Below are positions 23,669-37,110 of a stretch of 37,110 nt of DNA, in pieces. Source of the DNA: Candidatus Moraniibacteriota bacterium (GTDB lineage: Bacteria > Patescibacteriota > Minisyncoccia > Moranbacterales > UBA9337); contig JALSQF010000001.1 of NCBI GenBank assembly GCA_026985555.1, positions 1 through 37,110 on the forward strand. Reading direction: 5' to 3'. The notes beneath the pieces were generated by a model. That model saw nothing but the letters and a program-made list of their open reading frames with translations. It did no database searches and was not told the DNA's origin. Each line of letters opens with the position of its first letter. The stretch's first letter is position 1. A program made the position numbers and the translations under genes.

Positions 23669-23723
23669 ATATTTAATTATTTATATTATTGACTATAATG
23701 ATTAAATATTAAAAAATTGTGGA

Positions 23724-34314: not shown

Positions 34315-35271
34315 CTAATAAGAAGTCGTTCTTGTCAAATGATATGGTTTATCATTTTTTAATTTCTTTTGTCCTAACAACCAAAGATGATCATTAACAT
34401 GAATAGAATCAGCGTGTGCAATCTTCTTTTTTACCTTTTGTTTTATCAATTCAACAACCCAAATGGTATTTGCTCTTAGCTCTATTTCTTCCTCGCTGTC
34501 TTTTTCTATTGGTTCTTGATTATCAATTTTATCAGCGAGGTAATCTGAATAAGAGAAAATACCTAATCTTCTTAAAACAAAAGGTAATTTATAATCGGCA
34601 CACGCAGTTAATTCATTGATATTTTTTAATCTGCCAAATTCGTGCCCGTCAAAAGATTGAACAATATCAGATATTAAGAGTTGGGCACGTTTGTAAAAAT
34701 AAACTCTTTTACCCTTGTAAGTTGATGAGTCTTCAAAAGAAGGAAAATTCTCAACTATCAAACTCAATAATTTTTGTGAATCGCCATTTGCTTTTTTTAT
34801 GAGATTAGTAAAATCGCCACCAAATTTTTTAAGCAATGTTGTTCCAATTTCTCTTAAAATATTCAATCTTTCTTCAAAAAGAGGAATTTGAACATTGCCC
34901 TCTAAGATTTTACTAAGCTCTGATTCTTTAATCTCAGAAAGAAACTTTGCGTCCAAAATGGGAACATTATTTTCAATTGCTCTGGCAATGGCACAAATCA
35001 TTCCATAAACACCATCAACTTCTTTGGAATGATACTGTATTTTCCATTTTGGATCGCCCCAATATGAAAAACTAATAGAGTTAAAGACAAGTAAAAAATG
35101 TAATCTATCTTTTGGATTTAACTTTCTGAGATTAAATGGCGATTCATCAATCCAATGTTTGATATGAGAATGATTAAAATAATTAACAAACTCATCAACT
35201 TTTTTAGAATTTATTTTTACGTGTTGAGAATTTTCAACAATGAATTTGGCAGATTCTATAACTCTATTCAT
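34315..35271 (-). CDS. Queuosine-salvage protein (DUF2419 / Qng1-like N-glycosylase)
   Basis: SFSYWGDPKWKIQY, DGVYGM, LTACADYKLPFVLRRLGIFSYSDYL, YKRAQLLISDI. Confidence 0.85.
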   Translation of the reverse strand: MNRVIESAKFIVENSQHVKINSKKVDEFVNYFNHSHIKHWIDESPFNLRKLNPKDRLHFLLVFNSISFSYWGDPKWKIQYHSKEVDGVYGMICAIARAIENNVPILDAKFLSEIKESELSKILEGNVQIPLFEERLNILREIGTTLLKKFGGDFTNLIKKANGDSQKLLSLIVENFPSFEDSSTYKGKRVYFYKRAQLLISDIVQSFDGHEFGRLKNINELTACADYKLPFVLRRLGIFSYSDYLADKIDNQEPIEKDSEEEIELRANTIWVVELIKQKVKKKIAHADSIHVNDHLWLLGQKKLKNDKPYHLTRTTSY

Positions 35272-36475: not shown

Positions 36476-36784
36476 ATTACTATGTTAAATTTAAGATTTT
36501 TATAAATGTTACTTTTTGGCGGGCGGAGGGCAATGTTGCCTAACTGGTTTTTATGCGAAGTAAATTTCGTGATAAATACGGAAATTTGACAAAATACGAA
36601 TAATTGATAAGATACAAACAAACAAGTTTAAGTTTAAAATTATTCTTTTTTTGTCTAATCTAATTTTATTATACATGAAAAATATTATTTTACAAGCAAA
36701 AAATTATTTTAAAGCGGATATTTATTAGTGTCGCACAACCTTATAATTTGTAATTATTATGATAATAAATGTTTAGATTAATTA

Positions 36785-37110
36785 ATTTTATGTCGCACAA
36801 CCTCCTTTCCATAACTTTTCCACACTTTATGAATCCCCATGTTCCACGTGGAACATTTTATCTCTCAAACCCACATTTTTTAAAAAATCTAAAAAACTCA
36901 ATGTTCCACGTGGAACATTCTCAAACCTCCTTTCCATAACTTTTCCACACTTTATGAATCCCCATGTTCCACGTGGAACATTTTATCTCTCAAACCCACA
37001 TTTTTTAAAAAATCTAAAAAACTCAATGTTCCACGTGGAACATTCTCAAACCTCCTTTCCATAACTTTTCCACACTTTATGAATCCCCATGTTCCACGTG
37101 GAACATTTTA
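36785..37110. repeat. 125-bp exact tandem repeat (about 2.5 units seen, running off the window end)
   Basis: ACCTCCTTTCCATAACTTTTCCACACTTTATGAATCCCCATGTTCCACGTGGAACATTTTATCTCTCAAACCCACATTTTTTAAAAAATCTAAAAAACTCAATGTTCCACGTGGAACATTCTCAA repeated. Confidence 0.9.
36840..37105. promoter_or_regulatory. Five parS-like palindromes TGTTCCACGTGGAACA
   Basis: Exact copies at 36840-36855, 36902-36917, 36965-36980, 37027-37042, 37090-37105. Confidence 0.85.

Follow-up and report, generated by a model that had tools for sequence, protein, structure and literature searches.

A tandem array of parS sites near the replication origin of a Moranbacterales genome: a probable ParB-loading centromere

Organization of the locus

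The window, i.e., the whole stretch of DNA analyzed here (37,110 nucleotides), is a contig (C1) of the 741-kb, 11-contig assembly of a Candidatus Moraniibacteriota bacterium (GCA_026985555.1). It bears dnaA, dnaN, and ATP synthase genes, and its right-hand end is occupied by a tandem repeat with five copies of the 16-bp palindrome TGTTCCACGTGGAACA (Table 1). The cumulative GC skew reaches its minimum at dnaA, at about 26 kb, and the gene has consensus DnaA boxes on either side (positions 23718, 23917, 23929, 25460, and 25491); on these two grounds, we place oriC at dnaA. The first parS site lies 11.5 kb from the dnaA start (about 12 kb in a preliminary description made from the sequence alone), so that the array is situated in the right replichore and, by its distance from dnaA and the skew minimum, in the origin domain. 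The GC skew is locally reversed from 34000 to 38000, around a queuosine-salvage gene (34315 to 35271) and the array, which suggests that the DNA separating ksgA from the array was rearranged or inserted.

Table 1. Coordinates of the features discussed in the text (positions in the window)
Feature	Position	Strand	Remark
dnaA	23943..25385	-	GC-skew minimum and consensus DnaA boxes here
Flanking motif GTTGTGCGACAC	36728..36739	-	One mismatch to GTTGTGCGACAT
Flanking motif GTTGTGCGACAT, exact	36790..36801	-	
125-bp tandem repeat	36799..37110	.	2 parS and one DnaA-box-like TTTTCCACA per unit
parS site 1, TGTTCCACGTGGAACA	36840..36855	.	
parS site 2	36902..36917	.	
parS site 3	36965..36980	.	
parS site 4	37027..37042	.	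Possibly the C2:39 site itself, if the contigs are joined minimally
parS site 5	37090..37105	.	Possibly the C2:102 site itself, if the contigs are joined minimally

The palindrome matches the parS consensus, and all five copies are exact at the positions given in the preliminary description, where 0.02 matches would be expected even with up to three mismatches allowed. The start-to-start gaps of 62, 63, 62, and 63 bp were also measured correctly there, but the description was incomplete: the true repeat is a 125-bp unit with two parS sites, present in 2.5 copies of 100% identity, and the 62/63 alternation arises because this one block was duplicated. Outside parS, the two halves of the unit agree at 24 of 46 positions (shuffled expectation, 14.7; p ~0.002), and an older duplication of ~62 bp may therefore have preceded that of the 125-bp block. 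The + strand of the unit outside parS holds 27 C and 1 G, a composition at odds with the leading-strand bias in that replichore and unlike that of the relatives. The DnaA-box-like TTTTCCACA is found once in every unit (36816, 36941, and 37066) and provides candidate boxes. A coding repeat was rejected, since 125 is not divisible by 3 and the open stretches of 60 to 98 codons on the + strand look incidental, and so was a structured RNA, the array being without a match in Rfam.

Continuation of the array and number of sites

As the preliminary description had noted, the array runs off the window, and we traced it onto the start of a second contig, C2, which begins inside the array with parS sites at 39, 102, 164, 227, and 289. 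Searches of the genome at up to one mismatch recovered no parS beyond those at the end of C1 and the start of C2. The last 122 bases of C1 exactly overlap the first 122 of C2, and the units of the two contigs are identical apart from a 3-nt variant, TTTTATCTCTC in the C1 units and TTTTACCCCTC in the C2 units, which marks the expansion of the array as recent. C1 stops just before the variable triplet and C2 starts just after it; both contigs break at this branch point, the mark of an unresolved repeat. The minimal join of the two, T-T-C-C, would comprise 4 units with 8 parS sites, and the true count can be larger. We accordingly give at least 4 units and at least 8 sites as a floor, the join having been made from the overlap in sequence rather than from reads.

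Segregation proteins encoded in the genome

The preliminary description had proposed a search for parAB and regarded the absence of a ParB homolog as fatal to its reading; both proteins proved to be encoded, and the one ParB is of the parS type (see below). This protein of 330 aa (C10:20975) has the N-terminal, helix-turn-helix, and C-terminal (dimerization) ParB domains and a CTP-binding motif, GERRWRA, at residue 127 that fits GERRxRA. The ParA ATPase (C10:253821) is a protein of 261 aa recognized by PF13614 (E = 6.8e-67), and an SMC is also encoded. The genes for ParB and ParA are far apart, and neither is on the contigs of the array.

The nucleoid occlusion site, bound by Noc (NBS), is of the ATTTCCCGGGAAAT type. 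We ruled out such sites, which go with the residues Q/K/K/R in the protein, given that the site here is parS and that the four positions distinguishing ParB from Noc read R, K, S, and G (within GKSR at 198 and GHAK at 229). In an alignment with the solved chains of ParB and Noc, the protein has R201 and G229 where Noc has Q and R. These two residues match the invariant pair of parS-specific ParB proteins, R and G at Caulobacter positions 173 and 201 (PMC7383237), and the specificity is thus predicted to be of the parS type and not of the Noc type.

parS clusters in relatives and in other bacteria

The parS motif was recovered from all 10 of the family genomes examined, with zero matches to a reversed control, and 7 of the 10 have 5 to 11 copies. 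In six relatives (G003 and G005 to G009), clusters of 5 to 11 sites extend over about 0.45 to 1.55 kb and use the same 16-mer as the array described here, while their spacers are unrelated in both sequence and length; of these clusters, that of G006 alone shares the regular tandem organization (68/118 bp, against the 125-bp unit here). Four of them (G003, G006, G008, and G009) lie directly upstream of dnaA, at a distance of about 0.2 to 2 kb, as opposed to 11.5 kb here. The remaining relatives, G001, G002, and G004, have 1 or 2 sites each, at contig ends. Contigs end within ~120 bases of a parS in several family genomes (G001 C39, G002 C66, G004 C51, and G006 C26), indicating that short-read assemblies can break at the origin because of parS arrays and that the site counts of these relatives may be underestimates. 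The comparison shows that the origin region in the very small genomes of this family normally has parS sites in a dense cluster, and that tandem duplication can enlarge such a cluster with only the 16-bp ParB site being kept.

At the level of the order, 33 of the 78 genomes sampled have at least two parS sites 40 to 70 bp apart. A scan of GTDB recovered at least 119 dense parS stretches (three parS at 46- to 76-bp spacing), those listed coming from Bacilli, Clostridia, Flavobacterium, Treponema, Verrucomicrobia, Moranbacteria, and others. Seven loci from other phyla (L017, L018, L033, L042, L047, L084, and L115) share with the present array a head-to-tail arrangement of parS at a fixed period, with one site per 36 to 76 bp in place of two per 125 bp. 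The array at L033, from an uncultured Bacilli genome, has 15 parS at a period of 35 to 37 bp and is thus a denser regular array than that of the window.

A closely comparable published system is that of Myxococcus xanthus, in which 22 to 24 parS sites (consensus TGTTCCACGTGGAACG) are spread over about 3 kb, 30 to 35 kb from ori, and the DNA of the cluster is bound by ParB in vitro (PMC3899335, PMC3778016). The two share a dense chromosomal parS cluster near ori; they differ in that the ~3-kb M. xanthus cluster lies ~4 kb from parAB, whereas parA and parB are elsewhere in the genome here, and in that the present sites, at least 8 in number, are identical and contained in a 125-bp tandem unit. 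A passage of the M. xanthus paper that cites Livny et al. gives one to four parS sites for most species, five to eight for several, and twenty or more for a few. In a limited literature search, we found no paper on parS in Patescibacteria. The preliminary description considered the clustering unusual, parS sites being usually dispersed single copies; this view does not hold, as clusters are usual in the family, common in the order, and published for Myxococcus. The kind of cluster is therefore already known, and what is particular to this one is its displacement from dnaA, the recent amplification of a 125-bp unit, the almost G-free strand, and a second motif in its flanks.

Interpretation of the array

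We interpret the array as the parS centromere of the chromosome in a reduced genome, whose size and gene content suggest a member of the Patescibacteria (CPR). ParB would be loaded at the array near oriC and its regular spacing would be a product of duplication; we assign this reading a probability of roughly 0.9. The preliminary description had likewise suggested a centromere-like platform for ParB loading, and this remains the best reading of exact parS sites near oriC in a genome that encodes a cognate ParB of the parS type, ParA, and SMC. We infer a sequence of steps in which ParB dimers would bind each parS palindrome, close as CTP-dependent clamps, and slide into the flanking AT-rich noncoding DNA, so that one partition complex would form about 11.5 kb from oriC. 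This complex would be moved by ParA, SMC would probably be loaded at the array, and the many adjacent sites would provide a higher local loading rate along with redundancy. The 62/63-bp spacing, which this mechanism would not need, would stem from tandem duplication of the 125-bp block, perhaps after an older duplication of ~62 bp. Counted against this reading are the separation of parA and parB from each other and from the array and the greater distance from dnaA than the one seen in relatives.

The preliminary description stressed that the sites would all sit on the same face of the helix, and a more elaborate version of this idea is that ParB dimers lined up on one face build an ordered higher-order structure for which the spacing was selected. 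In this genome, the observation stands: at 10.5 bp per turn, 62, 63, and 125 bp are all within 0.1 turn of whole turns. As a designed feature, it fails, for the perfect identity of whole units already accounts for the spacing, and the comparison with relatives that the preliminary description had proposed showed irregular gaps, e.g., in G006, where gaps of 68 and 118 bp alternate, 0.48 and 0.24 turn away from whole turns. Over the family, 13 of 35 gaps are in phase (within 1.5 bp of whole turns), with 10 expected (Rayleigh p = 0.08 at 10.5 bp), and the gaps in the 119 GTDB stretches listed are in phase in 85 of 290 cases, against 82.9 expected. Among those matches listed, there is a weak preference for a phase of 4.9 bp, i.e., the opposite face, and the regular arrays have periods of 36, 48 to 49, 54 to 57, 63 to 64, and 74 to 76 bp, those at 36, 49, 55, 57, and 76 bp speaking against a common phase. 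Sliding clamps, as understood from the ParB-CTP literature, would also have no evident need for one. Selected phasing is thus very improbable, and since gaps are irregular in relatives and display no in-phase excess in the GTDB stretches listed, the spacing is best taken as a coincidence preserved by duplication. Even spacing in a single genome should not be taken as evidence of helical design.

As an alternative that we consider possible but rather unlikely, a single ancestral parS may have undergone neutral or selfish tandem expansion, without gaining any function beyond that of one site. This would fit the recent growth indicated by units that are identical but for one 3-nt variant. It would also fit the view, given in a review (PMC7022226) and in the title of a Pseudomonas paper, that a single parS close to oriC can suffice; according to the review, further sites may make the system more robust. 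The recurrence of multi-parS loci with unrelated spacers in the family, and their occurrence across the order, argues instead that several sites are favored by selection, without implying this for the 125-bp unit itself. The position of the array at a contig end and the local skew reversal at 34 to 38 kb could be taken as signs of a plasmid, a phage, or an integrated element, or of an assembly artefact. This is extremely unlikely: searches with the array against plasmid and phage records and with the unit against viral contigs found no match, the contig carries dnaA, dnaN, and ATP synthase genes, the array holds the only parS sites of the chromosome, and the clusters of relatives occupy the same origin region. 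The specific artefact envisaged in the preliminary description, a single copy multiplied in assembly, did not materialize either.

A second motif in the flanks

The array, here read as a centromere, is flanked by copies of a further motif, GTTGTGCGACAT(TAAT), which are inverted across it and point outward, two on the left (Table 1) and six on the right. The latter, on the + strand of C2:384-796 (L011), have up to two mismatches to GTTGTGCGACAT, with 0.017 copies expected by chance, and the genome has three copies of the exact core TTGTGCGACAT, every one of them at the flanks of the array. At the family loci examined, the only GTTGTGCGACAT near a parS cluster is a single copy differing at 2 positions, some 280 bp away from that of G005, and paired copies were absent from all other genomes in a set of 194 drawn from the class. 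A composite centromere could be envisaged, in which the parS array is bracketed by ~GGTTGTGCGACATTAAT and the latter is perhaps read by another DNA-binding protein that sets the limits of the ParB complex or helps it, but we regard this as quite doubtful. Just to the right of the repeat-rich region (L011, 961 to 1190) is the remnant of a dockerin-like reading frame (DVNCDGNSNSTDAMLILRYSLGLDMSG).
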